From: Allobosea sp. BH3
GTDB lineage: Bacteria; Pseudomonadota; Alphaproteobacteria; Rhizobiales; Beijerinckiaceae
Direction: 5' to 3'
DNA length: 64,000 bases
Assembly: GCF_025499465.1 (NCBI RefSeq)
Contig: NZ_JAIMCA010000003.1
Location: forward strand, 496,001-560,000
Shown here: positions 1,469 to 62,741 of the stretch, one piece after another
Numbering within the stretch: position 1 is the stretch's first letter
Layout of the letters: each line of letters opens with the position of its first letter
Position numbers and translations under genes: made by a program
Notes under the pieces: model-generated
The model's input: the letters and a program-made list of their open reading frames with translations, nothing else
The model's database searches: none
Told to the model about the DNA's origin: nothing

Positions 1469-1485
1469 TCGTCGCCGGCATGTCT

Positions 1486-1522: not shown

Positions 1523-1577
1523 CCTCAAACGGTGTCGCTCCGCGGGCCGCTGACCAGCCCGGCACCGAAAGCATGCA

Positions 1578-3145: not shown

Positions 3146-3161
3146 CCATCCTCTTGGATGG
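3146..3161. promoter_or_regulatory. Candidate operator upstream of the RHH regulator
   Basis: A perfect 6-bp inverted repeat with a 4-nt spacer (CCATCC TCTT GGATGG) lies 14 nt before the RHH gene, and another GGATGG half-site follows at 3167-3172 overlapping the ribosome-binding region. This fits autorepression by the ribbon-helix-helix protein but is untested. Confidence 0.4.
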
Positions 3162-3175
3162 CTTGAGGATGGAAC

Positions 3176-3568: not shown

Positions 3569-3585
3569 CCGACGAGGACGACACG

Positions 3586-4668: not shown

Positions 4669-4703
4669 CTGCCTGCCTGCTTCGATAAGCGCCCGGGTCG
4701 GCT

Positions 4704-4728
4704 CGAACTTATTCGACGCGGATGCGTT
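4704..4728 (+). promoter_or_regulatory. Weak EcfG-type promoter candidate (CGAAC-N16-CGTT)
   Basis: CGAAC (4704-4708) and CGTT (4725-4728) are separated by 16 nt, one base off the GGAAC -35 consensus. It lies 63 nt before the GTG start proposed for the ABC transporter and would make the earlier TTG at 4729 an unlikely start. Confidence 0.35.
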
Positions 4729-4791
4729 TTGGGTGCGTTCTATCCCGCCATCGGCAGCTCCGGGCTTTGGCTGTCAAACGGAAGTCGATCC

Positions 4792-6564: not shown

Positions 6565-6856
6565 CCCCGTGGCATTCCGGTCGTCGGCGTTCAAAACCGA
6601 GCGCTCCGACGCCCCTACGTCCGAGGCGAGCCAACCCGCACGCAATATCAAAAGACATCTCTCCCAAAATATTATCTCAGGAGATCGTGGTGTTTTATTT
6701 GCGAGATCAAAGATTTGGGCGGAACTAAAAGCATTCAAAACTAGTTCAAGTCACATCCCGCTCAGGCGGAACTTCCATAGGTCAGGCCAAGCTCGAAGCG
6801 ACGTCGCAGATCAGCGGCTCAGCGATGATGCACGCCCGAAATCACCGGAGCGGACG

Positions 6857-7933: not shown

Positions 7934-7963
7934 CCAGCCCCCAAGCCAAGGAAGGATTCTCCC

Positions 7964-10060: not shown

Positions 10061-10062
10061 CA

Positions 10063-12125: not shown

Positions 12126-13263
12126 TCGACAGATACCCGGAGAGGCGCCGTCTCCCGCTCCGTCGCAGCAGGATTTCAGGCCGCGCCTCCAAGCGGTGTT
12201 CCCGCATCTCGTCGCGTCCGGCGCACGCTACGACGCAGCACCGCTCTATCCGCAGGAAAGCGTCGAGACCCTGCGCAGCATCGGCCTGCACCGCCTTTTC
12301 GCTCCTCTGGAGAGCGGAGGCGAAAGCTTTGCCGATGCGCGAGCCGAGAACGCGTCACTGCTCGGCGTCCTCCGGATCATCGGTCGGGCTGACCTGAGCC
12401 TCGGTCGGATCTTCGAGGGCCATGTCAACGCGCTGAAGCTGTTCGCTTGGTTCGGCTCTGCCGAGCAGAAGGTGGAGCTAGCGTCGACGCTTAGAGATGG
12501 AGCGTTCTATGGCGTCTGGGCAACCGAGCCGCCGCCGGGCGTCACCCTCGGTCGCTCCGGCACGGACTGGCTCCTCACCGGCGCCAAGGCCTTCGCGACG
12601 GGGGCCGGCGGTCTGGCCTTCGCCGTCATCACCGCACGGGGCGAGGAAGACGGCACGCAGCTCGTCGTGGTCCCGGCGAATGTTGCGACCCGCGCCGATC
12701 TGTCGGCCTGGCGCGTGCGGGGCATGCGTGCGACCGGCAGCGGCAGTTACGATCTCACAGGCATGCAGCCGAGCGAGGACAAGCTCTTGGGCGCTCCCGG
12801 AGACTATACCCGCGAGCCCCGCTTCACTGCGGGTGCATGGCGTTTCCTTGCGGTCCAATTGGGTGGCGTCGAAGGCCTGCTTGCCGAAACACGCTCAGCG
12901 ATGTCGGAGATCGCCCGCAATGATGCTCTCCAGCGGGTCAAATTCGGCGAAGCAGTCGCCGCGACCCGAACGGCCTATCTCTGGGTGCGGGAGGCAGCGC
13001 AGCGTGCTGCCGATGACGCCGGGGATGCTCCGGATTTCGTGCGTATGACCCGCGGCATCGTCGAACGGGCGGCGCTCGATGTGATGGAGCTGTCGGCCCG
13101 GATCGTCGGCACGCGCAGCGCCTTCGACGGCCAGCGGATCGACAAGATCATCCGGGATCTGAGCCTTTATCTGCGTCAGGCCGGCCCGGACTATGCCCGC
13201 GATCAGGCAGCCATTGCTTGGCTCGACCATGATGTCTGGGGCGAGGATGACCGACTATGGTGA
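12112..13263 (+). CDS. Acyl-CoA-dehydrogenase-like flavoprotein
   Basis: The 383-residue protein follows acyl-CoA dehydrogenase architecture: an N-terminal helical domain, a middle beta domain starting near YGVWATEPPPG (in place of the usual TEPxAGSD), and a C-terminal helical bundle that binds FAD at dimer contacts. The GTG at 12112 is preceded by GGAGG and overlaps the upstream gene by 14 nt. In glycan clusters such homologues can act as dehydrogenases, oxidases or monooxygenases on non-CoA substrates. I could not confidently place the catalytic Glu, so the chemistry is open. It overlaps the PIG-L gene by 7 nt. Confidence 0.78.
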   Translation: MHQRDRQIPGEAPSPAPSQQDFRPRLQAVFPHLVASGARYDAAPLYPQESVETLRSIGLHRLFAPLESGGESFADARAENASLLGVLRIIGRADLSLGRIFEGHVNALKLFAWFGSAEQKVELASTLRDGAFYGVWATEPPPGVTLGRSGTDWLLTGAKAFATGAGGLAFAVITARGEEDGTQLVVVPANVATRADLSAWRVRGMRATGSGSYDLTGMQPSEDKLLGAPGDYTREPRFTAGAWRFLAVQLGGVEGLLAETRSAMSEIARNDALQRVKFGEAVAATRTAYLWVREAAQRAADDAGDAPDFVRMTRGIVERAALDVMELSARIVGTRSAFDGQRIDKIIRDLSLYLRQAGPDYARDQAAIAWLDHDVWGEDDRLW

Positions 13264-13982
13264 CGCGGCCGCTGTCAGCGCGATCGCTCGCGTCGAGTCC
13301 AACGGCGTCCGCTCGCTGGCTCGTGCTGGCGCCTCATGCCGACGACGAAACCCTCGGTTGCGGCGCGCTCATTGCCGACGCGGCCTCGCGGGGCGCGCTG
13401 GCGGGAATCGTCATTCTTACCGACGGGGTCGGCTCGCACAGCCACGACGGCCCGGCTTCGCGCGCTCGCCTTGTCGCAGCCCGCCGTCGGGAGGCGGCGC
13501 GCGCCGTCAGGGTGCTGGCCGGCCCGGCGCATCCGCCGCCGCTCTTCCTGGACTGGCCGGACGCGCGGCCCTTTGGGGCAGGCGAACCCGGCTTCGAACA
13601 GGCAAGGCGCCGGCTCACCGCTCTCTGCCGCCAGCGCCGGGTCGATGCGCTGGCTGTGACGGCGCGGCATGAGCCGCATTGCGATCACGAGGCCGCCTAT
13701 CGGCTGGCCAGCGCCGTTGCTTCGAGCGCCATGCGTCCCGTCACGGTCTTCGAGTACGTCGTCTGGGCGCCCGAGCCGCCCGACGAAGGCTACCGGGCGC
13801 TGCGCACGCCGCCGATTCCGATCGGCCTCCGCAACGCCGCGCTGGCGGCTCATGTCAGCCAGCTCACCCCGCAATTCGGCGAGGGCTTCAGGTTGCCGGC
13901 AGCGAAGCTGCGCATGCCCGCATCCGACCTGCTCTATGAAAGGACCGGGCTCAATGCGCGCGCGGAAAAGCCTGCCCCCTGA
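13257..13982 (+). CDS. PIG-L-type N-deacetylase (LmbE-like)
   Basis: This 241-residue zinc-dependent deacetylase carries both hallmark motifs: PHADDE at residues 26-31 (zinc-binding His and Asp pair) and HCDH at 141-144 (third ligand and catalytic His). The family removes acetyl groups from GlcNAc-containing lipids, pseudodisaccharides (MshB, BshB) or antibiotics. Here it probably unmasks an amine on a sugar, giving a substrate for the methyltransferase encoded next. It overlaps that gene by 29 nt and the acyl-CoA-dehydrogenase-like gene by 7 nt. Family assignment is firm; substrate is inference. Confidence 0.9.
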   Translation: MVTRPLSARSLASSPTASARWLVLAPHADDETLGCGALIADAASRGALAGIVILTDGVGSHSHDGPASRARLVAARRREAARAVRVLAGPAHPPPLFLDWPDARPFGAGEPGFEQARRRLTALCRQRRVDALAVTARHEPHCDHEAAYRLASAVASSAMRPVTVFEYVVWAPEPPDEGYRALRTPPIPIGLRNAALAAHVSQLTPQFGEGFRLPAAKLRMPASDLLYERTGLNARAEKPAP

Positions 13983-14544
13983 GTACTTTGAGCGGATGTT
14001 CGCGGGCACGCCCGACCCCTGGGGCTTCGAGACGAGCCCCTATGAGCGAGCCAAGTACGAACACAGCATCGCGGCACTGGGCGGCCGCCATTACCGCCGG
14101 GGCTTCGAGATCGGATGTGCTAACGGCGTTCTCACGCGTCAGTTGGCGCGGCATTGCGACGATTTGCTCGCCGTGGATGTCAGTGAGACGGCACTCGCCA
14201 GCGCGCGAGACCGGTGTTCCGAATTCCATGGAGTTCGCTTCGCCATCATGGGCTTTCCCGGCGAAGCGCCGACCGAGGCCGCATTCGACCTGATCGTCGT
14301 CTCTGAAGTCGCTTATTACTGGGACGACGCCGATCTCCGGCAAGCCGCCCGCCAACTGCATGGCCTGCTCGCGCCAGGCGGAGATCTGCTGCTCGTCCAC
14401 TGGACCGGAGAGACCGATTATCCCCAGAGCGGGGATGACGCCGTCGGAGCCCTGCAACAAGCGATGGCCTCCGACGTTCTGTCCGTTCTGCATGAGCGTC
14501 GGCCCGAATACCGGCTCGATCTCTGGCGCCGGAGCCCAGCGTGA
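13954..14544 (+). CDS. NodS-like SAM-dependent methyltransferase
   Basis: The 196-residue class I methyltransferase starts with the NodS-type block EYFERMFAGTPDPWGFETSPYERAKY. It continues with the SAM-binding motif I (FEIGCANGVLTRQLA), acidic residue in LLAVDVSE, and motif IV-like DLIVVSEVAYYW. Rhizobial NodS N-methylates the deacetylated glucosamine end of Nod factors. This protein is in the same family and directly follows a PIG-L deacetylase, so N-methylation of a deacetylated aminosugar is a reasonable hypothesis. No nodA, nodB or nodC is present, so it is not a Nod-factor operon. It overlaps the next gene by 4 nt (GTGA). Confidence 0.82.
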   Translation: MRARKSLPPEYFERMFAGTPDPWGFETSPYERAKYEHSIAALGGRHYRRGFEIGCANGVLTRQLARHCDDLLAVDVSETALASARDRCSEFHGVRFAIMGFPGEAPTEAAFDLIVVSEVAYYWDDADLRQAARQLHGLLAPGGDLLLVHWTGETDYPQSGDDAVGALQQAMASDVLSVLHERRPEYRLDLWRRSPA

Positions 14545-15389
14545 TCAGCGTCCTCACCTTGGTGAAGAACCGAGAGGCGCATCTGCGAAACCTCGTGGAA
14601 GGCTTGCGGCGCAGTGACATGGCGCCGGCCGAACTCGTCATCGTCGACATGAGCGACACGCCGGTCGCGCATCCCGCCGCGGATTTTCAGATCAGGCTCA
14701 TCCGCCTCGCGACCGAGGGTTTGCCCTTGGCGGAGGCCCGCAACCTTGCGGCCTCTCATGCCAGTTCGCCCTTCCTGTTGTTCCTCGACGTCGACTGTAT
14801 CCCTGGCCCGGGCCTGGTTTCCGCGATGGCCGATGCCTTGGATCAGCGCGATGCCCTGATCTGCGCAGAGATCCGCTACTTGACCGCGGGCGACGCCAAC
14901 GAAGGGCAATGGTCGGATGCCTCGCTCAGCGCAGCCGGCGTGTCGCATCCCGCGCGGCGGTTTCCACCATCCGGGGTGGCTGGGCAACGAAATTTCGGGC
15001 TGTTCTGGTCGCTCGCCTTCGGCGTGTCCGCCAGCGCCTTCAAACGCATCGGCGGTTTGGACGAGGCTTTCACTGGCTATGGCGCCGAGGATACCGACTT
15101 CGCCTTTCGCGCGAGGGAGACCGGCATAGATCTCCTCTTCCTTGGCGGCACGTGCGCCTATCACCAGCACCACGGCGTCTTCGACCCGCCTCTCCAACAT
15201 TTCGATGACATCGTGCGGAACGCTCGCGTCTTTCATGCCCGATGGGGGAAATGGCCGATGCTCGGATGGCTTGATGCTTTCGCAGATCGAGGCCTACTGA
15301 TCCGCAACGATGATCAACTCGAGATCACGCGTCAGCCGACCGTCGAGGACATTCGCCAGGCCGAGCGTCCACGCAGTCAGCCGTTCTGA
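14541..15389 (+). CDS. GT2-family glycosyltransferase, last gene of the cluster
   Basis: 282 residues with a GT-A core: ISVLTLVKNREAHL at the N-terminus, LFLDVDCIPGPG as the DxD region, and the galactosyltransferase-type C-terminal motif GGLDEAFTGYGAEDTDFAFRA that supplies the catalytic base and closes the active site. The GTG start overlaps the preceding stop codon. It is the second GT2 in the cluster and may add a different sugar from the first. About 80 nt separate its stop from the convergent SemiSWEET gene; I see no clear terminator there. Confidence 0.85.
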   Translation: MISVLTLVKNREAHLRNLVEGLRRSDMAPAELVIVDMSDTPVAHPAADFQIRLIRLATEGLPLAEARNLAASHASSPFLLFLDVDCIPGPGLVSAMADALDQRDALICAEIRYLTAGDANEGQWSDASLSAAGVSHPARRFPPSGVAGQRNFGLFWSLAFGVSASAFKRIGGLDEAFTGYGAEDTDFAFRARETGIDLLFLGGTCAYHQHHGVFDPPLQHFDDIVRNARVFHARWGKWPMLGWLDAFADRGLLIRNDDQLEITRQPTVEDIRQAERPRSQPF

Positions 15390-15466
15390 ACCCTAAGCTG
15401 GGGCGGATCGTCCATGAACCAGTATGCACTCTGGCGGAAGGAAAAACGGTCCCGAGGCGCCTCAGC

Positions 15467-15754
15467 TCACTTCAGCGCGTCCGCGATCTTGGCCTTCTGC
15501 TTCGACGACGCCAGCGTCATCGTCAGGATGAAGGCTGCCAGCACGAGGCAGATGCCATTGGTCAGGATCAGCGGCCATTGGCCCAGCATCCCGCCATAGA
15601 TCAGCCAGAGCAGGAAGCCGATCGTGTTGATCGCGTACATCGGGGCCGAGAGCGAGGACGTGTCGCGTGTCTTCACGATCCGCCAAGCCTGGGGCATGAA
15701 ACTGACCGTCGAGCAGAGCGCTGCACCGAAGCCGATGACGGTGATCCAGTTCAT
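15467..15754 (-). CDS. SemiSWEET family sugar transporter
   Basis: A 95-residue protein with three transmembrane segments and the PQ-loop signature FMPQAWRIVKTRDTSSLS in the first helix-loop. It matches the size and fold of bacterial SemiSWEETs, which dimerise to carry sugars by facilitated diffusion across the inner membrane. It lies 12 nt downstream of an SDR gene on the same strand and is probably transcribed with it from the EcfG-type promoter at 16775-16799. A stress-induced sugar exchange role is inference. Confidence 0.88.
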   Translation of the reverse strand: MNWITVIGFGAALCSTVSFMPQAWRIVKTRDTSSLSAPMYAINTIGFLLWLIYGGMLGQWPLILTNGICLVLAAFILTMTLASSKQKAKIADALK

Positions 15755-15766
15755 CCGCAGGGTTTC

Positions 15767-16624
15767 CTATAGGATTGGTTTGCCGCCGGTCACCGCGATC
15801 GTGGCGCCGGAGACATAACTGGATAACGGATCGGCCAGCATCACATACGCAGTGGCGAGTTCCGCCGGCTGCCCGGGTCGCTTCATCGGCACCTGCTTGC
15901 CGAAATTCGAGACACGCTCGGCATTCATCGTCGAGGGAATGAGCGGCGTCCAGATCGGCCCTGGGGCGACCGCATTCGCCCGGATCTCCTTCTCGGCCAG
16001 GAGTTGCGCCAACCCGGCGGTGAAGTTCTGGATCGCCCCCTTGGTCGTCGCGTAGGCAAGCAGGGTGGGGTTCGGCATGTCCGAGTTCACCGAGGCGGTG
16101 TTGATGATCGCGCTGCCGGCGGGCATGTGCGGCACCGCCGCCTTGGTCAGGTAAAACATCGAGTGGATGTTGACCCTGAACGTAAGCTCCCACTCCTCGT
16201 CCGAAATCTCGCCGATGTCGTCGAAGGTCGCCTGACGGGCGGCATTGTTGACCAGGATGTCGATCCCGCCCAGTTCCGCCATGGCCGTCTTGACGATCCC
16301 GCGGCAGTGGGCCGCCGACTGGATGTCCCCGGGTACGAGCACCGCCTTGCGGCCCGCCTCCTCGACCCAGCGTTTCGTCTCGGCCGCATCGTCCTCCTCA
16401 TCGAGATAGGAGATCAGGACATCGGCGCCTTCCCTGGCATAGGCGATCGCGACAGCCCGGCCGATGCCGCTGTCGCCGCCGGTAATGATTGCTCGTTTGC
16501 CCGCAAGACGGCCCGAGCCCCGGTAGGAGGTCTCGCCATGATCGGGGCGAGGCTCCATCTGGTCGGTCGAGCCTGGCATCTCTTGCTGCTGGTGAGGAAA
16601 CGGCGGCTTCGGGTGCTCGGTCAT
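15767..16624 (-). CDS. SDR-family oxidoreductase (YghA/YhxC-like)
   Basis: A 285-residue short-chain dehydrogenase with a hydrophilic N-terminal extension of about 40 residues typical of the YghA-like group. It has the cofactor motif TGGDSGIGRA, the structural LVNNAA, and the catalytic S...Y-x3-K arrangement (NTASVN, then YATTK). These enzymes are common stress proteins acting on aldehydes or sugars, with the true substrate rarely known. An EcfG-type promoter lies about 150 nt upstream and the gene appears to lead an operon with the SemiSWEET gene. Confidence 0.88.
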   Translation of the reverse strand: MTEHPKPPFPHQQQEMPGSTDQMEPRPDHGETSYRGSGRLAGKRAIITGGDSGIGRAVAIAYAREGADVLISYLDEEDDAAETKRWVEEAGRKAVLVPGDIQSAAHCRGIVKTAMAELGGIDILVNNAARQATFDDIGEISDEEWELTFRVNIHSMFYLTKAAVPHMPAGSAIINTASVNSDMPNPTLLAYATTKGAIQNFTAGLAQLLAEKEIRANAVAPGPIWTPLIPSTMNAERVSNFGKQVPMKRPGQPAELATAYVMLADPLSSYVSGATIAVTGGKPIL

Positions 16625-16774
16625 GGGCTTTCCTTCGGGGATCGGACTCTCGAGGACGTGTTGATGCTCGGCCCCGGACCTCTCGGAGCAGAACTGGCCG
16701 TGAAGCTCGGACGACTGCCGCTCTACATCTCGCGAATTCAGGAATGGAACCCGAGGGCTGGGTGATGATCAGCC

Positions 16775-16799
16775 AACCCCTCAAGGTCGTTGGCGTTCC
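16775..16799 (-). promoter_or_regulatory. EcfG-type promoter (GGAAC-N16-GGTT)
   Basis: Read on the minus strand, GGAAC (16799-16795) and GGTT (16778-16775) are 16 nt apart. It points toward the SDR-SemiSWEET pair and is back to back with a second match facing the ThDP enzyme. Confidence 0.6.
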
Positions 16800-16836
16800 G
16801 CGGCTTTAGCGAAATGACCGCAAGGGCGCCGGGACC

Positions 16837-16861
16837 GGAACATGGCGGCATGGCCCCCGTT
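16837..16861 (+). promoter_or_regulatory. EcfG-type promoter (GGAAC-N16-CGTT)
   Basis: A full consensus match: GGAAC at 16837-16841 and CGTT at 16858-16861 with a 16-nt spacer, 69 nt before the ThDP enzyme start. The element extends to GTTCC (16859-16863), making a GGAAC-N17-GTTCC palindrome. Confidence 0.75.
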
Positions 16862-16929
16862 CCCTCTCCACGAACCTTCGGTCCCGGGCGCTGATCGCTT
16901 CCTGCGTCGAATCCAGGAGCGCTGGCCGA

Positions 16930-18759
16930 ATGGAGGCAAGCGATCCCTTCTCATCTTCGGACATCATCATGGCCCGCACAGTCTCCGACTTCATCTGGAC
17001 GCGTCTTCACGACTGGGGAGTGAAACGCGTCTACGGCTATCCGGGTGACGGCATCGGCGGCCTGATCGCGGCCTTGCAACGACGCGAAGACGACCTCGAG
17101 TTCGTCCAGGTCAGGCATGAGGAAGCTGCGAGCCTGATGGCATCGGGCGAAACCCGATTTACGGGCGAGGTCGGCGTATGCATCGCCACCTCGGGACCCG
17201 GCGCGGTCCACCTGCTCAACGGCCTTTACGATGCGCGCCTCGATCACCGCCCGGTGGTCGCCATCGTCGGTCAGCAGGCGCGCTCGGCGATGGGCTCGCA
17301 CTACCAGCAGGATCTCGACCTGCAATCGCTCTTCAAGGATGTCGCCGGCGCCTATGTCGAAACGGCCTCCGTGCCGGCGCAGGTGCCACATCTGATCGAT
17401 CGCGCCTTCCGGATCGCCATCGCCGAGCGGCGCGTCACCTGTGTGATCCTGCCCAACGATCTCCAGCTCGAGGAGATGGTCGAGCCGTCTCAGGAACATG
17501 GCATGACGCACTCGGGTGTCGGCATCGAATTGTCGCCTGTGGTTCCTGCTGCGACCGCCCTCCAGCGTGCGGCAGACGTGCTCAATGCGGGCGAGAAGGT
17601 CGCCATCCTCGTCGGTGCCGGCGCGATCAAGGCGACCGACGCGGTACTCGCCACGGCAGAGAAGCTGAAGGCGGGAATTGCCAAGGCCCTCCTGGGCAAG
17701 GCTGCGGTGCCCGACGACGTGTCGTTCTGCACGGGCTCTATCGGTCTGCTCGGGACGAAGGCGAGCTGGGATCTGATGCAGGGCTGCGACACGCTGCTGA
17801 TGATCGGGTCGGGCTTCCCCTACACGGAATTCCTGCCGAAACCCGGACAGGCCCGCGGCGTCCAGATCGACATCGACGCCGGGATGCTCGGCCTGCGCTA
17901 CCCGATGGAAGTCAACCTCATCGGAGACGCTGCCGCGACGCTGGAAGCGCTTCTGCCGTTGCTGAAGCCCAAGACCGCCGACGATTGGCGGGCTACGATC
18001 GAAGCCAATGTCAGCGATGGCTGGCAGGAGGTGGCCGACAGCGCAATGGTCGAGGCATCTCCGATCAACCCGCAACGGGTCGCCTCCGAACTGTCCGAGC
18101 GCCTGCCGGAACGCTGCATCGTCACCGCCGACAGCGGCACGACAACGGTCTGGTATGCCCGTCATCTGCGCTTCCGGCGTGGCATGATGGGCTCCGTCTC
18201 GGGCACGCTGGCGACGATGGGCTGCGCCATCCCCTATGCCGTCGCAGCGAAGTTCGCGCATCCGGATCGTCCGGCCATCGCGCTGGTCGGCGACGGCGCG
18301 ATGCAGATGAACGGCATCACCGAGCTGGTGACGATCGCGAAATACTGGAAACGTTGGGCCGATCCCCGGCTCGTGATCATGGTGCTGAATAACCGCGAAC
18401 TCGCCTATGTAACCTGGGAGGAGCGGATCCAGGCCGGCGATCCGAAATGGCCGGCGAGCCAGGAGCTGCCGGACTTGCCCTACGCCGAGATCGCGAAGCT
18501 TATGGGACTTTCCGGGCGGCGGGTCGAGGATCCCGAACAGGTTGGGCCGGCCTGGGACGAGGCGCTCGCGTCCGATCGCCCCTTCGTCCTCGACATGGTG
18601 ACCGATCCGAACGTTCCCCCACTGCCGCCGCACATCACCTTCGCTCAGGCACGCGGACTCGCAGGCGCCTTGGCCGCGGGAGATCCCGATGCTGGGAGCG
18701 TCATCGCGAATACGGCGCGCTCACTCCTCGGCACGCTGCTGCCGACGCAAAAGCGCTGA
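16930..18759 (+). CDS. Thiamine-diphosphate enzyme, pyruvate oxidase/acetolactate synthase-like
   Basis: A 609-residue ThDP enzyme in three domains. The PYR domain contains YGYPGDGIGG and the catalytic Glu in VRHEEAASLMA, the middle domain runs from about 200 to 330, and the PP domain has the ThDP/Mg-binding GDGAMQMNGITELVTIAKY followed by LNNRELAYVTWE. It is closest in layout to PoxB-like thiamine-requiring proteins, which decarboxylate pyruvate or related 2-oxo acids, but the exact substrate is unclear. ATG 16930 has AGGAG 9 nt upstream; ATG 16969 is an alternative start. It leads a probable stress operon with the cysteine hydrolase, DUF6766 and glycosylase genes from the EcfG-type promoter upstream. 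Confidence 0.85.
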   Translation: MEASDPFSSSDIIMARTVSDFIWTRLHDWGVKRVYGYPGDGIGGLIAALQRREDDLEFVQVRHEEAASLMASGETRFTGEVGVCIATSGPGAVHLLNGLYDARLDHRPVVAIVGQQARSAMGSHYQQDLDLQSLFKDVAGAYVETASVPAQVPHLIDRAFRIAIAERRVTCVILPNDLQLEEMVEPSQEHGMTHSGVGIELSPVVPAATALQRAADVLNAGEKVAILVGAGAIKATDAVLATAEKLKAGIAKALLGKAAVPDDVSFCTGSIGLLGTKASWDLMQGCDTLLMIGSGFPYTEFLPKPGQARGVQIDIDAGMLGLRYPMEVNLIGDAAATLEALLPLLKPKTADDWRATIEANVSDGWQEVADSAMVEASPINPQRVASELSERLPERCIVTADSGTTTVWYARHLRFRRGMMGSVSGTLATMGCAIPYAVAAKFAHPDRPAIALVGDGAMQMNGITELVTIAKYWKRWADPRLVIMVLNNRELAYVTWEERIQAGDPKWPASQELPDLPYAEIAKLMGLSGRRVEDPEQVGPAWDEALASDRPFVLDMVTDPNVPPLPPHITFAQARGLAGALAAGDPDAGSVIANTARSLLGTLLPTQKR

Positions 18760-18787
18760 TCGCCGTTCGACAGGAAAGAACTTCCTC

Positions 18788-19396
18788 ATGATCGCCAAAG
18801 GACTTGAGCACGGCGGGATCGGCGGAAACGGCCTGCATCTGTGCGTGGACATGCAGCGCCTGTTCGACGTCGGGTCTCCCTGGGCCGTGGACTGGTTCGA
18901 GCGTGTGCTTTCTCCGATCGAAGAGCTATGCGGTTCCCATCCCCATCGGACCATCTTCACACGCTTCATCCCTGCGACCCGCCCCGGTGACGGGCGCGGG
19001 ACATGGGCGCGCTATTATCGGCGATGGGCCGACGTGACACTGGAACGGATCGGCGCCGACGCCATCCGGCTGGTCCCCGCCCTCGAGCGCTTCGTGCCGC
19101 CGGCTCGGGTGATCGACAAGCACGTCTATTCGCCATGGAACGAAGGCAATCTCGACGCTCTCCTCGCTGGATCCGGCATCGATACCGTCATCGTGACCGG
19201 AGGCGAAACCGATGTCTGCGTCCTCGCAACCGTCCTCGGGGCGGTCGATCGTGGCTTGCGAGTCATCTTAGCGACCGATGCGGTGTGCAGTTCGTCCGAT
19301 GCGACCCATGACGCGCTGATGGAACTCTACCTTTCGCGCTTCACCGAGCAGATCGAGGCGGTGAGCACCGCCGAGATCCTGCATGCGTGGCGATAG
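18788..19396 (+). CDS. Isochorismatase-like cysteine hydrolase
   Basis: The 202-residue protein has the catalytic triad of the family: D21 in CVDMQ, K111 in DKHVYS and C144 in TDVCVLAT, with the preceding VTGGETD loop. Members cleave amide or vinyl-ether bonds (nicotinamidase, isochorismatase, N-carbamoylsarcosine amidase); sequence does not decide among these. It lies 28 nt after the ThDP enzyme gene with AGGAAAG before the ATG, and is 12 nt ahead of the DUF6766 gene. Confidence 0.88.
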   Translation: MIAKGLEHGGIGGNGLHLCVDMQRLFDVGSPWAVDWFERVLSPIEELCGSHPHRTIFTRFIPATRPGDGRGTWARYYRRWADVTLERIGADAIRLVPALERFVPPARVIDKHVYSPWNEGNLDALLAGSGIDTVIVTGGETDVCVLATVLGAVDRGLRVILATDAVCSSSDATHDALMELYLSRFTEQIEAVSTAEILHAWR

Positions 19397-19408
19397 ACGG
19401 GGAGCTCG

Positions 19409-20041
19409 ATGAAACCGATCATGCGCAACAACGGACTGACCCTGGTACTGCTCGGAATGTTCCTGTTCTCGCTCGCGGGCATGGCGCTTACCGGCCTCGC
19501 CTCTCATAATGAAGAACTCATCCAGCATGGGCAGCGGGCTCTCCCATTCGGTGCTTACCTGACGAGCGGACCTTTCCTCTCGGCCCTCTTCGAGAATTGG
19601 GAGAGCGAGTTCCTTCAGATGGCGACCTATGTCGTCCTGACCGCGATGCTGTTCCAGCGAGGGTCGGCGGAGTCCCGCGATCCCGACGCTCCGGGGCGGG
19701 AGAACGATGACCTGCCCTGGCGGGCGCGCAATCCCAAGCTAGCGTGGCTCTATGAGCATTCGCTGGGCTTGGCGCTCGCCGTTCTTTTCATCGCCTCCTT
19801 CGCGCTGCACTGGTGGTTCAGCGCCATTGCCGCGAACCAGGAAGCGGAGGTCCACGGCCGCGAATTGAAGACCATGCTCGGCTATCTCGCAGACTCTCAG
19901 CTCTGGTTCGAATCCTTTCAGAACTGGCAGTCCGAATTTCTGTCCACCGCCGTCCTGGTCGTGCTGTCGATCTTCTTGCGCCAGCGAGGATCGCCCGAGT
20001 CCAAGCCGGTGGCGGCCGATCATTCCGAGACCGGGGCCTGA
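19409..20041 (+). CDS. DUF6766 family membrane protein
   Basis: A 210-residue protein with two hydrophobic segment pairs (about 10-30 and 68-86, then 112-132 and 178-195). The two halves look like an internal duplication, each ending in a W-x-SEFL block (NWESEFLQM and NWQSEFLST) followed by a hydrophobic segment and a QRGS motif. No function is known for the family. It probably belongs to the ThDP-enzyme operon, preceded by GGGGAG. The duplicated motif is directly visible; the family name is from memory. Confidence 0.7.
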   Translation: MKPIMRNNGLTLVLLGMFLFSLAGMALTGLASHNEELIQHGQRALPFGAYLTSGPFLSALFENWESEFLQMATYVVLTAMLFQRGSAESRDPDAPGRENDDLPWRARNPKLAWLYEHSLGLALAVLFIASFALHWWFSAIAANQEAEVHGRELKTMLGYLADSQLWFESFQNWQSEFLSTAVLVVLSIFLRQRGSPESKPVAADHSETGA

Positions 20042-20104
20042 TATTGCAGGAGTTCTATCAGCAGGGTTCGATCTGCTTCCCTCTTCGCCGCCGGATGAAT
20101 CCCC

Positions 20105-20689
20105 ATGGCCGATCATGTCATGCTCGAGCTTCCGCCACTCGCGGACAGCTTCTACCGAAGGCCGGTGGCGCTGGTGGCGCGAGAACTGATCGGCGCGACG
20201 CTGCTGTTCAGGGGCGCGGGCGGTCCGATCGTCGAAACCGAGGCCTATGACCATGAGGATCCGGCGTCGCACAGCGTGAAGGGACCGAATTCGCGGAACC
20301 GCAGCATGTTCGGCCCGCCCGGGCACGCCTACGTCTATCGCTCCTACGGACTTCACTGGTGCCTGAACGTGGTCTGTGGGCTGACGCCGGGTGCCGCCGT
20401 TCTCATTCGCGCGATCGAGCCGCTTGTCGGCATCGAGGAGATGAGAAGCCGGCGAGGCGACCTCCCCGATCGTCAACTCTGCTCGGGTCCCGGCCGCCTC
20501 TGCGCAGCTTTGGGCATCGAGGGTAGCTGCGATGGTCACGACCTCACGCGACCACCGTTCTCCTTCTCCTCAGGACCGTCCTGTTCCAAGGTCCTAATCG
20601 GAACGCGCATCGGTATATCGCAAGCGTCAGATGTTCCTGGGCGTTTCGGCCTCGCCGGCTCGGCGTTCCTCAGTCGGCCGTTCCGTTGA
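20105..20689 (+). CDS. mpg: DNA-3-methyladenine glycosylase (AAG/MPG type)
   Basis: This 194-residue base-excision repair enzyme belongs to the alkyladenine glycosylase family. It has the catalytic Glu in VETEAYDHEDPASHS, the Tyr that intercalates in the YVYRSYGLHWCLNVV block, and the GPGRLCAALGI signature. It excises alkylated or deaminated purines from DNA. The ATG at 20105 is weakly preceded by a ribosome-binding site, and 63 nt separate it from the DUF6766 gene. Placement among EcfG-type stress genes fits a DNA-damage role. Confidence 0.95.
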   Translation: MADHVMLELPPLADSFYRRPVALVARELIGATLLFRGAGGPIVETEAYDHEDPASHSVKGPNSRNRSMFGPPGHAYVYRSYGLHWCLNVVCGLTPGAAVLIRAIEPLVGIEEMRSRRGDLPDRQLCSGPGRLCAALGIEGSCDGHDLTRPPFSFSSGPSCSKVLIGTRIGISQASDVPGRFGLAGSAFLSRPFR

Positions 20690-20712
20690 AGGAGGGTTCT
20701 GGATCCTCCTTC
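20688..20712. terminator. Hairpin between convergent glycosylase and SDR genes
   Basis: An 8-bp perfect inverted repeat (GAAGGAGG ... CCTCCTTC) with a 9-nt loop overlaps the glycosylase stop. There is no strong T run, but the position between convergent genes fits a terminator. Confidence 0.5.
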
Positions 20713-20746
20713 CCGTCGGAGTGTTCAGTGGCACGACGCCATGTCG

Positions 20747-21541
20747 TCAACGATCAGCCGAGCCCGGCTCCGCCATCTTCCGGTGTTGCTTGGCGAGCGT
20801 CTCGGCCGGGGTCACGTTGGCAAGCGAGGACTGGAGCTTGTTTTTCCAGCCACTGACGACGTCGCCCTCTCCGGCGAGAACTGCGTCATAGCCTGCTTTC
20901 GCGACGTCGGCCGGATCGTCCTTTTCGTCCTGGCCGATCTTGGTATCGAGCAACCCCGCACGCTCGAAGAAGCGGGTCTCGGTCGCGCCCGGCATGAGGC
21001 AGGTGACGGTGACGCCCGTGTCCCGCAACTCCTCGCGGAGCGCGAAGGAGAAGGAATCGATGAACGCTTTCGTACCGTTGTAGACGGCCTGGAACGTCCC
21101 CGGCATGAATCCCGCGATCGAGCCGGTAATGAGGATGCGCCCCTCGCCCCGGTCGCGCATCTGAAGACCGACCTTCTTCAGCAGCAGCAGCGTGCCGACA
21201 ATGTTGGTGTCGATCACGCGCAGCCACTCGGTGTCGTCCTGATCGAGGAAGCCGTGCCCGAGACCTCGTCCTGCATTGGCGAAGAGCAGGTCGATCGGCC
21301 GCCCCGCTTTGGCGATTTCCCCGACGAGTTCTTCGACCCCCTCCTCGTCGCTCAGATCGGCGACGATCGAGACAACGTTGGCGCCCTCTGCCTTCAGTTT
21401 CGCCGCAGCGTCGTGGATGTCGGTTTCGTCGGCCGCAATGATCAAGTCGTAGCCGTCCGCCGAGGCAAGCTGGGCCAGCTCGAAGCCAATCCCGCTCGAA
21501 GCGCCTGTGACGACTGCGAGTTTCCCCGTTCCATTTGCCAT
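20747..21541 (-). CDS. SDR-family oxidoreductase (DltE-like)
   Basis: A 264-residue classical short-chain dehydrogenase. It has the cofactor-binding TGASSGIGFELA, the NAG motif variant LFANAGRG, and catalytic residues in ITGSIAGF and YNGTK. The substrate is unknown. ATG 21541 follows GAGGAGAA; a GTG at 21559 overlaps the preceding stop and is a possible alternative. It follows the zinc alcohol dehydrogenase and shares its EcfG-type promoter. Confidence 0.87.
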   Translation of the reverse strand: MANGTGKLAVVTGASSGIGFELAQLASADGYDLIIAADETDIHDAAAKLKAEGANVVSIVADLSDEEGVEELVGEIAKAGRPIDLLFANAGRGLGHGFLDQDDTEWLRVIDTNIVGTLLLLKKVGLQMRDRGEGRILITGSIAGFMPGTFQAVYNGTKAFIDSFSFALREELRDTGVTVTCLMPGATETRFFERAGLLDTKIGQDEKDDPADVAKAGYDAVLAGEGDVVSGWKNKLQSSLANVTPAETLAKQHRKMAEPGSADR

Positions 21542-21555
21542 GTCGTTCTCCTCGT

Positions 21556-22728
21556 TCACGGGGTAAGGACAACCTTGATGCAGCCGTCCTCCTTGTCGCG
21601 GAATGTCTGATAAAGCCCGGGCCCATCCTCAAGCCCCGCCCGGTGCGTGATGACGAAGGAAGGGTCGATCTCGCCGGACGTGATCTTTTCGAGAAGCGGC
21701 GCGAGATAGCGGTGCGTATGCGTCTGCCCCGTCTTTAGCGTCAGTCCCTTGTTCATGAAGGCGCCCATCGGGATCTTGTCGAGGAAACCGAAATAGACGC
21801 CGGGCATAGAGATCGTGCCGCCCTTGCGACAGCACATGATCGCCTCCCGGAGCGCATGCGGACGATCGGTTGCGAGGTAGGTCGCAGCCTTGATCTTGTC
21901 GATGACGGCATCGAACGAACCGCTGCCATGGGCCTCGGCGCCGACCGCGTCGATGCAGCGATCGGGGCCACGGCCCTTGGTCATCTCCATGAGGCGGTCG
22001 TAGACGCCGACATCGTCGAAATTGATCGTCTCAGCCCGCCCCTTGCTCGCCGCCAGCGCAAGCCGCTCAGGAACATTGTCGATCGCGATGACGCGACCCG
22101 CGCCGAACATCCAGGCCGACTGGATCGCGAACTGGCCGACCGGGCCGCAGCCCCAGACCGCGACCGTGTCGCCTTCCTCGATCTCCGCATTCTCCGCCGC
22201 CATGTACCCGGTCGGGAAGATGTCCGATAGGAACAGCACCTGCTCGTCCGGAATGCCGTTCGGGACCTTGATCGGTCCGACATCGGCATAGGGCACCCGC
22301 AGGTATTCGGCCTGCCCGCCCGGGAAGCCGCCGAGCATATGCGAATAGCCGAATAAGCCGGACGGCGACTGGCCCATCGCCTTCGTTGCCTGATCCGCGT
22401 TCGGATTAGAGCGGTCGCAGAGTGAGAAGAGCTGCTTGCGGCAGAAGAAGCAGTCGCCGCAGGCGATGTTGAACGGCACGACGACCCGATCGCCGACCTT
22501 GAGGTTCCGGACGTCGCGCCCGACCTCGACGACCTCCCCCATGGTCTCGTGTCCAAGTACGTCGCCTGCCTCCATCGTCGGCGTGTAGCCGTCATAGACG
22601 TGCAGGTCGGAGCCGCAGATCGCGCAGGCCGTAACCTTGATCACGACATCGCCGGCATCCTGGATTTGTGGATCGGGCACCGTTTCGCAGCGAATATCGC
22701 CCTTGCCGTGCCAGCAGAGTGCTTTCAT
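21556..22728 (-). CDS. Zinc-dependent alcohol dehydrogenase (formaldehyde-dehydrogenase-like)
   Basis: The 390-residue medium-chain dehydrogenase has catalytic zinc ligands in CAICGSD and GHETMGEV, four structural zinc cysteines in [19 protein letters not shown], and the NAD-binding motif [13 protein letters not shown]. The extended layout with the long segment near [13 protein letters not shown] matches glutathione-independent formaldehyde dehydrogenase relatives. It oxidises an alcohol or aldehyde, probably as a detoxification step. It is preceded by a perfect EcfG-type promoter and followed by an SDR gene. Confidence 0.9.
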
Positions 22729-51900: not shown

Positions 51901-51908
51901 GGGGAACG

Positions 51909-58974: not shown

Positions 58975-59478
58975 TCAGTTATCCGTCATCCGCAATCGAA
59001 ATCCCTCTCCTCTGACATCCGAGGGCGACAGGAATTCGATGCCGAGTGACTGAAGGGCATCCCGGACGGCCACGCTGGCGACAGTGGCCTCGGCGTTCGG
59101 CGCTCGGCTCTCGACTCGCGCGACGGTTCTGGGATGGACCCCGGCCCGAGCTGCCACCTCATCGAGGCTGAGTTGGAGAGCGAGCCTGGCGGGTTTTATC
59201 AGGGCGGCGAAAGCCAGCCTCGTAGGCCTTTGACCGCTTTCGCCCGCTTCCGGAGGCATGCGAAATCCGACCACCCGACCATCCGATGCTTTGAGGAATT
59301 CGATTCCCTTGGCTTCCAACGCCGCCTGCACCGCGACGGCACCGCGTGATGGGCGGGATTCCGCAGCCTCGATCCTACCTACCGTGCGGGCATGCAATGC
59401 CGCGTCGGCCGCGATCGTTTCCAGGCTCGCGCCCATCGCAATTCTCGCCGCTTTCAAGAGCTTAGCGCTGGCAAGCAT
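58975..59478 (-). CDS. Tandem helix-turn-helix (XRE-like) regulator
   Basis: 167 residues built from two copies of one module (about 8-74 and 95-163). Each has a helix-turn-helix (KAARIAMGASLETIAADAA and KPARLALQLSLDEVAARAG), a recognition helix starting HARTVGRIE or HPRTVARVE, and an end motif GIEFL...GFRM/GFRL. This is an internal duplication giving a covalent dimer. It faces away from the ParA-like gene across a region with three TATATA-type repeats and probably regulates that promoter. Start ATG 59478 lacks a good ribosome-binding site; an ATG at 59538 extends the frame. Confidence 0.8.
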   Translation of the reverse strand: MLASAKLLKAARIAMGASLETIAADAALHARTVGRIEAAESRPSRGAVAVQAALEAKGIEFLKASDGRVVGFRMPPEAGESGQRPTRLAFAALIKPARLALQLSLDEVAARAGVHPRTVARVESRAPNAEATVASVAVRDALQSLGIEFLSPSDVRGEGFRLRMTDN

Positions 59479-59547
59479 CCGGAGGGGATGACACGCACGA
59501 ATCCTGAAATCCAGAGCATCGATGGAATGCCCTCCCATCGGCTTGAA

Positions 59548-59597
59548 TGCCTATATGCGGACTCACTTGCCTATATATGGGCATCCGCTATATATCG
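59548..59597. promoter_or_regulatory. Triple TATATA-type operator array
   Basis: Three related elements lie in a GC-rich genome: TGCCTATATGCGG at 59548, TGCCTATATATGGGCA (imperfect palindrome) at 59568-59583, and CGCTATATATCG near 59586-59597. They are about 20 and 18 nt apart, near two helical turns, in the divergent promoter region of the tandem-HTH and ParA-like genes. Confidence 0.5.
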
Positions 59598-59663
59598 AAT
59601 CCTCGATCGGGCTGCGGCGCTCCGACGAATCGCTCGCCAGACAAGTGCCCGGAGACACGATCG

Positions 59664-60374
59664 ATGGAGATTTTCGCCCTTGCCGGATCGGGTGATCAGA
59701 TCGCGCGGACGAGTGTCAGCCTGGTGCTCGCTCTCGGCTTGGCCCGGCGCGGATTGAAGCCATTGCACATCCAGGTGCTGGACGACGAGGACGCCGCCCC
59801 CGTCCTATCGAGGCCCGAGCACGCCCCCTTCACGAGCCTCGCGCTGGCCCCTGGCGATGCCGGACCGACCGGCTCCGGTATACTTCAGCGGGCATTGGCC
59901 CATGGCGATCTCGGCCCGGTCGTCGTCGACCTGCCCGGTAGAGACGTTCCGACGAGGCTGCTCGGCCACCGGCACTGCAACCTCCTGCTGCCGATGGCGA
60001 CACATCGGCCCGAACTCAAGCGATCGGCCCAGGACTTCGCGTGGCTCGCGGCGAGACGGTCACCCTTCGGTAGCAGGAACGTCTTCGTCGTGCCGGTCGG
60101 ATGGCCGTCGGTCCTGAGACAGGCCGACTATCAGCGTCTGCTCAAGCGCGAGGCCGCTCGCGCTGCCGCAGCGATGTTGCCCGCGGCGCGGCACATTGTC
60201 CCGCGCGGGATATCGGACGTCATCCTGGGTCTCGGCCCGCTCCTCATCGACGGGGCGGTCAACTCGGAACGGCAACTGGCTCACGAAGCGGCGGTGATCG
60301 CGCAGGCCGTTCTCCGGTCGACGGGCAGTTCCTGGATCGAAAGCGATCCGACCCGAGACACATCCGGTTCCTGA
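59664..60374 (+). CDS. ParA/MinD-like protein with degenerate P-loop
   Basis: 236 residues aligning in outline with ParA-type ATPases: the N-terminal strand MEIFALAG, then GSGDQIARTSVSLVLALGLARRG where ParA has KGGxGKT, so both P-loop lysines and the threonine are absent; LHIQVLDDEDA, and a VVVDLPGRDVP strand in the Walker B position. It is probably a nucleotide-independent or degenerate ParA-like scaffold. GGAG lies 9 nt upstream of the ATG. It begins a three-gene run with a small protein and the FtsH-like protease. Confidence 0.6.
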   Translation: MEIFALAGSGDQIARTSVSLVLALGLARRGLKPLHIQVLDDEDAAPVLSRPEHAPFTSLALAPGDAGPTGSGILQRALAHGDLGPVVVDLPGRDVPTRLLGHRHCNLLLPMATHRPELKRSAQDFAWLAARRSPFGSRNVFVVPVGWPSVLRQADYQRLLKREAARAAAAMLPAARHIVPRGISDVILGLGPLLIDGAVNSERQLAHEAAVIAQAVLRSTGSSWIESDPTRDTSGS

Positions 60375-60431
60375 ATCCGAGCGGGTCAGCCGAGTGTTCG
60401 TAATCGCAACCGATCCTTGGGAAAGCATCGT

Positions 60432-60755
60432 ATGGACAAGAATATCATGGGCCAAATTCGTGCGGCCGTCCTTCGCGGTGACCGCAAAGCCACGCTGGCG
60501 GCCTTGCGTGAACTCGGCCGGGGAAAGGACCCTCACGACTCGGATGATGCCTCCGCCTCCGAGGGGGTGAACGTCACCCTGTCCTTGGCCGAGCTGATGG
60601 CCCTCATCGAGCTGGTCACCAAGCCGAAGTCGTTCGGCGAGGCCCTGGCGGAGATCGGGTTCGAACCGGTCAAGGGCGCGCGACTGGCGCCACGTGAACC
60701 TCATCCGATGCGGCGCGGGCCGCTGCCACGCCGCTCCGAGGATGACCAGACCTGA
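60432..60755 (+). CDS. Small hypothetical protein of the FtsH-like module
   Basis: 107 residues, helical N-terminal half (IRAAVLRGDRKATLAALRELG, VNVTLSLAELMALIELV), then a short basic Pro/Arg-rich tail. It lies 57 nt after the ParA-like gene and 66 nt before the AAA+ protease, probably one transcript. GGGAAAG precedes the ATG. It may be a substrate adaptor; no family recognised. Confidence 0.55.
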   Translation: MDKNIMGQIRAAVLRGDRKATLAALRELGRGKDPHDSDDASASEGVNVTLSLAELMALIELVTKPKSFGEALAEIGFEPVKGARLAPREPHPMRRGPLPRRSEDDQT

Positions 60756-60821
60756 CCCCGACATTCAGTCGGCCATCATCCTCGCACCGCTAACCGATCC
60801 GAAGACGGGACGTCGACAACC

Positions 60822-62741
60822 ATGAAATGGGGTTCCCTCGCCAAGCAGGAACGCAGGAAGCTCACGCGGTCCGTATCTCGTTTCCTGGCGTACTGCGATC
60901 TGATCCGGCATTGCCGACCCTATGTAGACTCCCATGGCTCGTTCGCGATCGTCGTCGTGCTGCCCCCGGAAGGGAACATCGACCAGTACAAGGAAGCTGC
61001 GCTGTTCGCTTTCGCGGAGCCTGAACCGCGGTCGCGCTTCGACTTCGAGAAGACGAACTATCTGATCGCTGACAAGGACTGGAGCCGCAAGGAACGGCTA
61101 ACCCTCGAAGGGTTGGTCAATTACGACCGCCTCGTCGTGCTCGCGAGGAACCGGTCGGACGTTCATGAGAAGGGCCTCGCGGTGGCGGATGCCGTCATCA
61201 CCCTCGGCCCGCCCGAGGTCGGTCACGTTGTGGCCGCGGCCCGTCTCTGCCTGAAGCAGCACATCGGCGAGAACCTGGCGCGCGAAGTCGCGGGCATGCC
61301 GCTCGACCTGATCGCGGCGACGGTTCGACGCGGTCGGCCCGTGGAACGGTCGGCCGAGATGGTCCGGATCATGATGCGTAAGCAGGAGAAGCCCGAGGCC
61401 GGTCAAGTCGGCGTCGAGGCCCTCCACGGTTTCGGCGAGGCGGCAACCTGGGCACGCGAGCTCGCCACCGACCTGAAGGATTGGCAAGCCGGCAGGATCG
61501 CATGGGGCGACGTCGACCGTGGCATCCTGCTAAGCGGCCCACCGGGTGTCGGGAAAACGACCTTTGCTATGGCCCTGGCCACGACCTGTGGAGCTCATCT
61601 CGTCGTCGGTTCGATCGCAAGGTGGCAAGCTCGCGGGCACCTCGGAGACATGTTGAAGGCCATGCGAGCCGCCTTCGAAGAGGCGAAGCAGCGCGCCCCC
61701 GCGATCGTGTTTATTGACGAGGTCGATGCCGTCGGCTCGCGGGAGGATTTCCGCGGCCACAGCGCGCAGTACAACACGGAGGTCGTGGCCGCTCTGTTGG
61801 AGTGCATCGACGGCGTCGACGGGCGTGACGGCGTCATCGTCGTCGGCGCCTGCAATCATCCTCACAAGCTCGACCCGGCCCTCGTCAGGCCCGGAAGGCT
61901 CGACAGGCATGTCAGGATCCCGCTGCCCGATGGCGCCGCCCGTGAAGGGATCATCCGGTTGCATCTCGCCGGGGACCTGGCCGATCACGATGTCAGCCAG
62001 GTCGTCCGGCGGACGGAGGGGTGGAGCGGCGCCGGCTTGGAGAAGCTGGTTCGCGAGGCCCGTCGCGTCGCCAGGCGCGGGCGTAGACCCGTGTCGTCAT
62101 CGGACCTGGAAGCGTCGCTGCCGAAGCGGATCGCCATTCCGGAAGAACTGCTGCGACGGGCCGCGATCCACGAGTGCGGTCACGCCATCGCGTTCCTCTC
62201 TTTCGGGCACCCGTTCGAGGCGCTGGAGCTGTACGACGTGTCGGAGGGAGCGGACGGCTACCAGCCGCTGGGGTTCATTCAGATGACAGGCATTGAGCCG
62301 CGGGCGTCGACCGCCGCCACGATTCGCGACGATATCTGCGGACTGCTCGGCGGCATGGCTGCGGAGGAAGTGTTGCTCGGCGCTCGATCATCGTCGGGCG
62401 GCGGCGCCCGGGATAGCGATCTGCATCGGGCCACCCTTGCCGCGGTTCGGCTCGAGGCGTCGTTCGGTCTCGGGGCCGGGATGTCGTTCATCGCGGAGGA
62501 TCGCGAGGCTGATCTGATGTCCGCTCTCCGACTGTCCGGCGACTTGCGGTCAAAGGTCGACAAGACCCTTGCGGGGGAGATGGCCAGAGCCTGCGCGATC
62601 ATCGAAGCCCGTCGGGGGCCCTTGCTGAAGGTCAGCAACGAGTTACTGGTGAGGCGGCGGCTTTCGAGTGACGAGTTTCGAGGAATGATCTCGAGCGATG
62701 AGCGCGCGGAAGGCGAAGGCCAGAATGCTTTCCCACACTAG
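60822..62741 (+). CDS. Soluble FtsH-like AAA+ zinc metalloprotease
   Basis: 639 residues. An N-terminal domain of about 200 residues has no transmembrane helix, unlike true FtsH. The AAA+ module has Walker A GPPGVGKT (about 239-246), Walker B IVFIDEVDAVG (about 294) and an arginine-finger region VRPGRLDRHVRIPLP. The M41-type peptidase has the zinc motif HECGH (450-454) and the third ligand Asp in GGARDSDLHRAT. All catalytic residues are present, so it is predicted to be active. It should degrade a specific cytosolic target, perhaps presented by the upstream ParA-like or 107-residue protein. ATG 60822. Confidence 0.8.
   Translation: MKWGSLAKQERRKLTRSVSRFLAYCDLIRHCRPYVDSHGSFAIVVVLPPEGNIDQYKEAALFAFAEPEPRSRFDFEKTNYLIADKDWSRKERLTLEGLVNYDRLVVLARNRSDVHEKGLAVADAVITLGPPEVGHVVAAARLCLKQHIGENLAREVAGMPLDLIAATVRRGRPVERSAEMVRIMMRKQEKPEAGQVGVEALHGFGEAATWARELATDLKDWQAGRIAWGDVDRGILLSGPPGVGKTTFAMALATTCGAHLVVGSIARWQARGHLGDMLKAMRAAFEEAKQRAPAIVFIDEVDAVGSREDFRGHSAQYNTEVVAALLECIDGVDGRDGVIVVGACNHPHKLDPALVRPGRLDRHVRIPLPDGAAREGIIRLHLAGDLADHDVSQVVRRTEGWSGAGLEKLVREARRVARRGRRPVSSSDLEASLPKRIAIPEELLRRAAIHECGHAIAFLSFGHPFEALELYDVSEGADGYQPLGFIQMTGIEPRASTAATIRDDICGLLGGMAAEEVLLGARSSSGGGARDSDLHRATLAAVRLEASFGLGAGMSFIAEDREADLMSALRLSGDLRSKVDKTLAGEMARACAIIEARRGPLLKVSNELLVRRRLSSDEFRGMISSDERAEGEGQNAFPH

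Follow-up and report, generated by a model that had tools for sequence, protein, structure and literature searches.

A stretch of 64,000 nucleotides of the Allobosea sp. BH3 genome (contig NZ_JAIMCA010000003.1, positions 496,001 to 560,000; the window) carries at 58975-62741 a module of four genes, a divergent tandem helix-turn-helix (HTH) regulator, a ParA-like gene, a gene for a small protein and a gene for a soluble AAA+/M41 zinc metalloprotease, which we tentatively, and with somewhat less than even confidence, read as a regulated cytosolic protease borne by mobile elements, selective, XRE-repressed and provided with a pseudo-ATPase adaptor. Coordinates are positions in the window, negative values lying to its left, and labels in G and L denote comparison genomes and loci, with G000 the own genome. 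Open reading frames, Pfam matches and homologues confirm the four genes, which are conserved as a set. As the gene set is syntenic in further Bosea genomes and the ratio of non-synonymous to synonymous substitution rates (dN/dS; Nei-Gojobori, here and below with partly saturated dS) is well below 1 for all four genes, the module represents more than chance, and all four components named in a preliminary description of the sequence are borne out on these grounds.

The protease (639 amino acids, 60822..62741, plus strand) was characterised by Pfam, a tree, a motif table, an AlphaFold model and Foldseek. It consists of an N-terminal domain (residues 16-195, 60867..61406), an active AAA+ domain with Walker A, Walker B and arginine fingers (61413..62135) and an M41 protease domain (62139..62696) with the HECGH zinc site at 62169-62183 and the ligand Asp533, all on the plus strand. 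Pfam recognizes AAA (PF00004) with 114.5 bits and Peptidase_M41 (PF01434) with 44.6 bits at a gathering cut-off of 29.9. The Walker motifs and the HECGH site are intact as previously described, and none of the 21 aligned family members has lost Walker A, Walker B, the arginine fingers, HExxH or Asp533 as the third zinc ligand; the second region of homology, which belongs to the FtsH motif set, is also present. The pore loop reads W-Q-A-R-G-H-L-G in the window protease versus E-M-F-V-G in FtsH, and dN/dS is 0.13-0.23.

While members of the FtsH family are described as membrane-anchored (PMC9020784), the claim that an anchor of this type is absent holds. With the highest 19-residue Kyte-Doolittle mean (KD19) in the first 200 residues as the measure, the window protease reaches 1.24 and the 21 family members 1.02-1.87 (five of them at least 1.6), versus 2.24-2.79 in 15 FtsH proteins; the overall maximum of the window protease, 1.61, lies at residue 248, just past Walker A. 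In a tree of 43 rows (midpoint root; several long branches flagged by the program; L043, L044, L056, L086, L088, L187, L193, L195 and L199-L203 left out), a branch of 2.5 with support of 100/100 separates the five FtsH rows from the protease family, and the window's clade, represented by eight Bosea rows, is recovered at 100/99. The protease scores 193.2 bits with the FtsH equivalog model TIGR01241 against a cut-off of 600, and the own genome encodes a separate FtsH on contig C1 (G000:C1), 34% identical to the protease over residues 193-625. This own FtsH and the split in the tree rule out that the protease is the housekeeping FtsH, and the possibility of an ordinary housekeeping enzyme at a core locus, raised beforehand, does not apply to the module, which is accessory. 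Judged by its sequence, the protease is a member of a family distinct from FtsH, rather than an FtsH in which the anchor was simply lost. Of the earlier designation as a soluble FtsH-like protease, the soluble M41 enzyme stands; what has to be changed is its affiliation, as it belongs to a family of its own with a different N-terminal domain and several mobile contexts. The AlphaFold model (mean pLDDT 80.1) finds its top Foldseek matches in cytosolic FtsH structures; with a pTM of 0.48 the placement of the domains is uncertain. A scan of the genome contigs was swamped by FtsH-like matches.

In place of the anchor, the protease probably has a second AAA+ domain that has decayed. Pfam recognizes nothing in the first 190 residues, and a profile of residues 16-195 built from 56 sequences aligns by hhalign with the family's own AAA domain, from sensor 1 to the lid, with a score of 34.1 (E 9e-5, probability 59%) in one direction and 36.5 (E 4e-5, probability 70%) in the other. 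The controls were lower: the reversed profile scored 18.1, the M41 domain 11.2 and 60 column shuffles no more than 18.0. An independent profile of the FtsH AAA domain (55 sequences) gave 19.7 in the same register, above the 10.8-17.3 of seven other families; built from 21 sequences, the N-terminal profile reached only 24.6 against the family's own AAA domain (E 0.006, probability 6%). Among PDB sequences the domain found no AAA match and nothing significant (best E 0.14), which counts against the pseudo-AAA interpretation.

The degenerate ParA/MinD-like protein (236 amino acids, 59664..60374, plus strand), delineated by alignments, precedes the small protein. Its open reading frame opens at 59547 and stops at 60374; as homologue alignments begin at ATG 59664, this is most likely the start rather than 59547. 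The loss of the P-loop previously noted is confirmed, the lysine being arginine in 11/11 sequences shown, of which four keep the first KGG lysine. A decay series leads from KGGAGRT (G568) via KGGSART (L177) to GSGDQIART in the window, where the motif GSGDQIARTS departs from the deviant Walker A KGGxGK(T/S) of ParA/MinD ATPases. Eight of ten matches of the ParA-like profile in PDB are named MinD, FleN, ParA-type or ArsA, the best being MinD with E 0.025; with the protease domains the profile gave no match by hhalign. The dN/dS of 0.20-0.28 in three pairs indicates purifying selection, and the protein is read as a maintained pseudo-ATPase.

Conserved pairing with an AAA+ machine distinguishes the ParA-like gene. 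All seven full-length Bosea copies (window, G037, G057, G056, G027, G024 and G050:C12) adjoin the protease, so that the co-occurrence proposed earlier is found. Two fragments exist in addition, at G050:C2 adjoining the protease and at G038:C34 without a protease in 11 kb of sequence. In another genus of the same family, 5/5 ParA-like genes adjoin an AAA+ protein of 510-532 amino acids; for the one tested, Lon proteases are the best solved relatives, the similarity being confined to the AAA+ part. Including the G568 locus, where HTH, ParA-like and DUF6634 genes occur with neither AAA+ machine, 12 of 13 intact ParA-like loci adjoin such a machine (M41 protease in the seven Bosea, Lon-type AAA+ in the five of the other genus); a G605 match (E 9.9e-4, five stops) was excluded from the intact count. 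One gene set swapping AAA+ partners is as expected of an unfoldase adaptor. The ParA-like gene was found on no plasmid in one tblastn search of 72,556 plasmid records, and none of 45 pattern matches in viral contigs was confirmed.

The window's clade comprises ten loci, the window and nine others. At two of them, G017 and G050:C2, phosphoesterase and DUF6634 genes are present, and in G025 the module is cut at a rearrangement breakpoint: at L039 8723-8832 the sequence, which matches window -93..22166 at 86-92%, jumps to 60497-62689, so that the break separates the ParA-like gene from the small protein. At L047 7862-8522 what is left of a ParA-like gene continues into an overlapping DUF6634 frame, with phosphoesterase and protease genes downstream, and at L183 1116-3103 a shortened Bosea ParA-like gene lies beside a gene resembling an IS21-type transposase by eye. 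Both AAA+ types meet at locus L202 (4418-9951), where HTH, DUF6634 and Lon-type AAA+ genes lie side by side with part of a phosphoesterase gene and an M41 protease gene that is divided between two overlapping frames.

The mobile nature of the family emerges from its wider neighbourhoods. A census covered 45 accessory protease loci from 150 genomes searched, chosen, among the matches listed, for not being orthologues of FtsH (the near-identical L042, L043 and L044 counted singly; L060, the same locus as L054, counted once). The loci L039-L089 and L177-L184 served to seed and iterate the neighbour profiles, so that the first 20 loci were part of the training set. The Tn7-like transposase TnsB occurs within 8 kb of 10/45 accessory loci versus 0/10 FtsH control loci; all ten belong to the 20 closer loci, with none (at 1e-20) in the 25 more distant. 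Further tns-linked loci are L083 of Microvirga and L084 of Rhizobium, the latter with TniB and TniQ above, Mu_transpos_C at and TnsA below the Pfam cut-off. At 11/12 distinct Tn7-linked loci the protease gene precedes the tns genes by 0.2-3.3 kb in the same orientation, the exception being the divergent L052. Among the 45 loci the recurrent neighbours are DUF6634 (23), HTH (19), TnsA-like (19), phosphoesterase (13) and Xre/MbcA/ParS (13) genes, with HTH, DUF6634, phosphoesterase and Xre/MbcA/ParS neighbours at 0/10 FtsH control loci; the corresponding counts for the 25 more distant loci are DUF6634 10, Xre/MbcA/ParS 9, TnsA-like 9, phosphoesterase 5, HTH 5 and TnsB 0. The name of the upstream TnsA-like gene derives from the iterated profile only, and L084:9284-9913 and three others tested have no Pfam match. 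On viral contigs a Rep3 initiator was recognized upstream of the protease in 3/5 large upstream proteins tested (one below cut-off), one relative resides on a linear phage-like plasmid with terminase and portal genes and others on rhizobial plasmids. A CHAT-domain (caspase-like) protein is encoded near a relative on a viral contig (L189 8670-10586). Of seven Tn7-linked stretches only G055 has an exact 18-bp direct repeat in three copies shortly past tniQ (L051 17179-17263), possibly transposase sites at one element end; an opposite copy was not found in 79 kb. As element ends were not found, a location of the protease inside the transposon is not established.

The window copy itself is not cargo of a Tn7-like element. 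TnsB is found neither near the loci of the window's clade, including the window and 60 kb on either side, nor in the own genome with an 11-row TnsB profile and PF09299; the 11-row profile was run on eight genomes, and the PF09299 search missed the TnsB of G038:C19. The module is instead located at the ssb end of a genomic island. The ssb gene was matched in 66/67 Bosea genomes, and in 7/29 ssb loci examined the DNA at 0.1-0.35 kb from the ssb 3' end corresponds to a place in the own genome that lies about 15 kb to the left of the window; in G000 these two sites are about 78 kb apart (about -14,870 to 63,094), which delimits the island, the site being empty in the seven loci. No tRNA as integration site was found in the window or in L065. 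The island also carries a CBASS-type pair and, by eye, Ku- and DnaE2-type repair genes. Three adjacent large genes at -6028 to -1091 (L065) within it resemble a recombinase trio by eye.

The module begins with the regulator, an XRE-type protein with two tandem HTH units (58975..59538, minus strand; two stretches each of Pfam HTH_3, HTH_31 and HTH_25). The G037 homologue is also tandem, the homologues from G057, G056, G050:C2 and L177 (89-109 amino acids) consist of a single HTH unit, and a divergent HTH gene adjoins 11/13 intact ParA-like genes, the window counted; dN/dS is 0.14. The divergent promoter region (59539..59663, no strand) contains, read by eye, TGCCTATAT-type repeats, which probably constitute the operator. 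No exact palindrome with 7-nt arms was found in the window; at other loci different repeats, including exact palindromes as in L177 and L041 (by eye), occupy the same place. The XRE protein probably represses its own promoter and that of the operon. The small protein (107 amino acids, 60432..60755, plus strand, ATG 60432) belongs to no known family, with no match in Pfam, PADLOC, NCBIfam or PHROGs, and is recognized by its homologues beside the protease. These adjoin the protease in 6/45 accessory loci, all of the window's clade; the protein is seen in 7/10 loci of this clade and has a dN/dS of 0.28-0.29.

Cumulatively, the following mode of action is proposed. The XRE protein would bind the repeats of the shared promoter and hold expression of the operon low until a signal, such as DNA entry or loss of the repressor, leads to expression. 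The ParA-like pseudo-ATPase and the small protein, read as adaptors because AAA+ proteins of two unrelated types are partnered by one HTH/ParA-like set, would deliver a chosen substrate to a hexameric pseudo-AAA/AAA+/M41 machine, which would unfold and degrade it; protease activity and adaptor contact with the ParA-like protein are predictions. As transposases, replication initiators and phage genes occur among the neighbours of relatives, the substrate would most likely be a protein that a mobile element or phage has bound to DNA. The benefit would most likely arise in conflict between mobile elements, which makes the module a defence in that broad sense only. A far-reaching generalization, considered doubtful, is that the element family encodes its own double-AAA (pseudo-AAA plus AAA+)/M41 machine dismantling the nucleoprotein complexes of transposons, plasmids or phages, with ParA-like pseudo-ATPases as interchangeable adaptors of M41- and Lon-type machines.

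Several observations speak against a regulated protease with dedicated adaptor. Two loci of the window's clade are devoid of the ParA-like gene, G025 with no match in the entire genome and G017, the contig of which begins 1.6 kb upstream of the protease. The ParA-like protein is rare, with matches in 10/298 family and 3/297 order genomes (both including the own genome; one of the three order matches is doubtful). Its assignment to the ParA/MinD class is weak, as it rests on motif position and profile rank at E 0.025; a Pfam match is absent and the predicted structure, modelled for one sequence, has a pLDDT of 35. Finally, 9/45 accessory loci are without any tracked neighbour, so that the protease can act without these neighbours or with others.

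The strongest competitor, although unlikely, is an anti-phage system in which infection triggers the protease to degrade a phage protein or, in abortive infection, an essential host protein. It is favoured by the CBASS-type pair in the window (50959-52796), a patatin phospholipase and a nucleotidyltransferase above the NCBIfam cut-offs for the anti-phage proteins DS2_1 and DS2_2; this pair is not adjacent to the module, as claimed before, but 6-8 kb off. Among 76 neighbour proteins of seven other loci of the window's clade, the PADLOC models LmuA, LmuB and LmuC of Lamassu match one protein each, by size and order probably those encoded at L042:12742-16222, adjoining the HTH gene; mads_1 matches two proteins and mads_3 and PDC-S10 one each, too few to call a system. 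In addition, Tn7-like transposons are reported to carry defence cargo (PMC8649781). On the other hand, no PADLOC system-level model fits the module, in which the protease matches the IetA and TRIP13 models across its AAA part only. A complete known defence system is present in two of eight distinct neighbourhoods of the clade (the window's CBASS-type pair and the Lamassu set elsewhere) and was not found in six, so the defence role suggested earlier is possible at most. Several relatives, moreover, adjoin tns or Rep genes. As a separate observation, two neighbouring minus-strand proteins of the window (52981-54870) are alike by eye, one with a weak deoxyribosyltransferase match and the other with a PADLOC match to a TIR effector.

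Those tns and Rep neighbours would be accounted for by another doubtful proposal, in which the protease is a private ClpX-like remodeller that clears the transposase strand-transfer complex or replication initiator of its own element after use, the window copy being a descendant that moved off. The same-strand position upstream of the tns genes in 11/12 Tn7-linked loci and the Rep3 initiator on viral contigs are consistent with it, as is precedent from the host, ClpX being reported to disassemble MuA complexes (PMC5357137) and to raise integration by wild-type TnsB of a Tn7-like CRISPR-associated transposon (CAST), for which a disassembly step was hypothesised (PMC12326709). However, TnsB is missing near the window's clade, in the own genome and, at 1e-20, at the 25 more distant loci, and Rep3 is limited to three of five proteins, one under the cut-off. 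Furthermore, by the 11-row profile G057, G056 and G017 possess strong TnsB genes with none near any protease among the matches listed, so that the transposase is independent of the protease.

It is quite improbable that the module is a genetic switch, with the protease degrading the neighbouring XRE repressor to turn the element on in the way ImmA acts on ImmR in ICEBs1. The divergent HTH gene beside 11/13 intact ParA-like genes and an HTH gene at 19/45 accessory loci would agree with a switch, but these bacteria very commonly encode small XRE proteins of this kind, 26/45 loci have no such HTH within 8 kb and an AAA+ ring would be a costly tool for a single repressor. Least probable of all is an enzyme of general stress or protein quality, resident on an accessory island as is known of the second FtsH in Pseudomonas aeruginosa clone C (PMC6629908), to which the Ku- and DnaE2-type repair genes of the island might point, but against which stand the missing FtsH-type anchor, the separate family, the dedicated partners and the swap of the AAA+ partner.

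If the reading as a regulated, element-borne protease is true, the FtsH enzyme class would be widened by a soluble branch that repeatedly occurs in mobile contexts and has another, possibly pseudo-AAA+, domain at its N-terminus. The family also offers itself as a candidate when elements are supposed to remodel transposase or replication complexes with an enzyme of their own, a step for which host ClpX has been proposed in Tn7-like CASTs (PMC12326709), and the pairing of a conserved ParA-like pseudo-ATPase with two unrelated AAA+ machines makes an adaptor function directly testable. In the literature searched (most subscription papers outside it), Tn7-like and FtsH occur together in one paper, with FtsH confined to a figure legend, DUF6634 is not mentioned and no paper combines an FtsH-like protease with an anti-phage defense system. 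By term search, neither 'protease', 'peptidase' nor 'FtsH' occurs in the main text of the study of Tn7-like cargo by Benler et al. 2021, and in PMC10293859 'FtsH' is absent and 'protease' confined to the methods.

With respect to known systems, the module genes include no CBASS cyclase, effector or Cap protein, the only matches being capH through an HTH fold (5.2e-05) and TRIP13 through an AAA fold (1.1e-10). IetAS resembles the module in joining an AAA ATPase with proteolysis, and the AAA domain of the protease matches IetA models; IetS, however, is a separate subtilisin-like protein, whereas the window protease has a fused M41 domain, and Pfam detects no S8 peptidase among the four genes, which do not belong to IetAS. 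The ParA-like protein shares with the ParA/MinD deviant Walker A ATPases the position of the motif and the decay series from KGGAGRT to GSGDQIART, but differs in the lost P-loop lysine, the absence of a Pfam match and the weak profile score. ClpX acting on Mu and Tn7-like transpososomes is likewise an AAA+ unfoldase in transposition and an analogue for the tns-linked relatives (PMC5357137, PMC12326709); it belongs to the host and carries no fused M41 domain, and for the window module its role is an analogy only. The ftsH2 gene of PACGI-1 in P. aeruginosa clone C is also an additional, island-borne M41 protease (PMC6629908), but is described as a xenolog of the membrane-spanning FtsH that forms hetero-oligomers with FtsH1, and the abstract names no ParA-like partner. 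With FtsH/HflB itself (M41, TIGR01241) the window protease has in common the AAA+ core motifs, the HExxH zinc site, the Asp ligand and the Foldseek ranking, while it differs in having no FtsH-type membrane helices, another N-terminal domain, another pore loop, a clade of its own and an accessory distribution.

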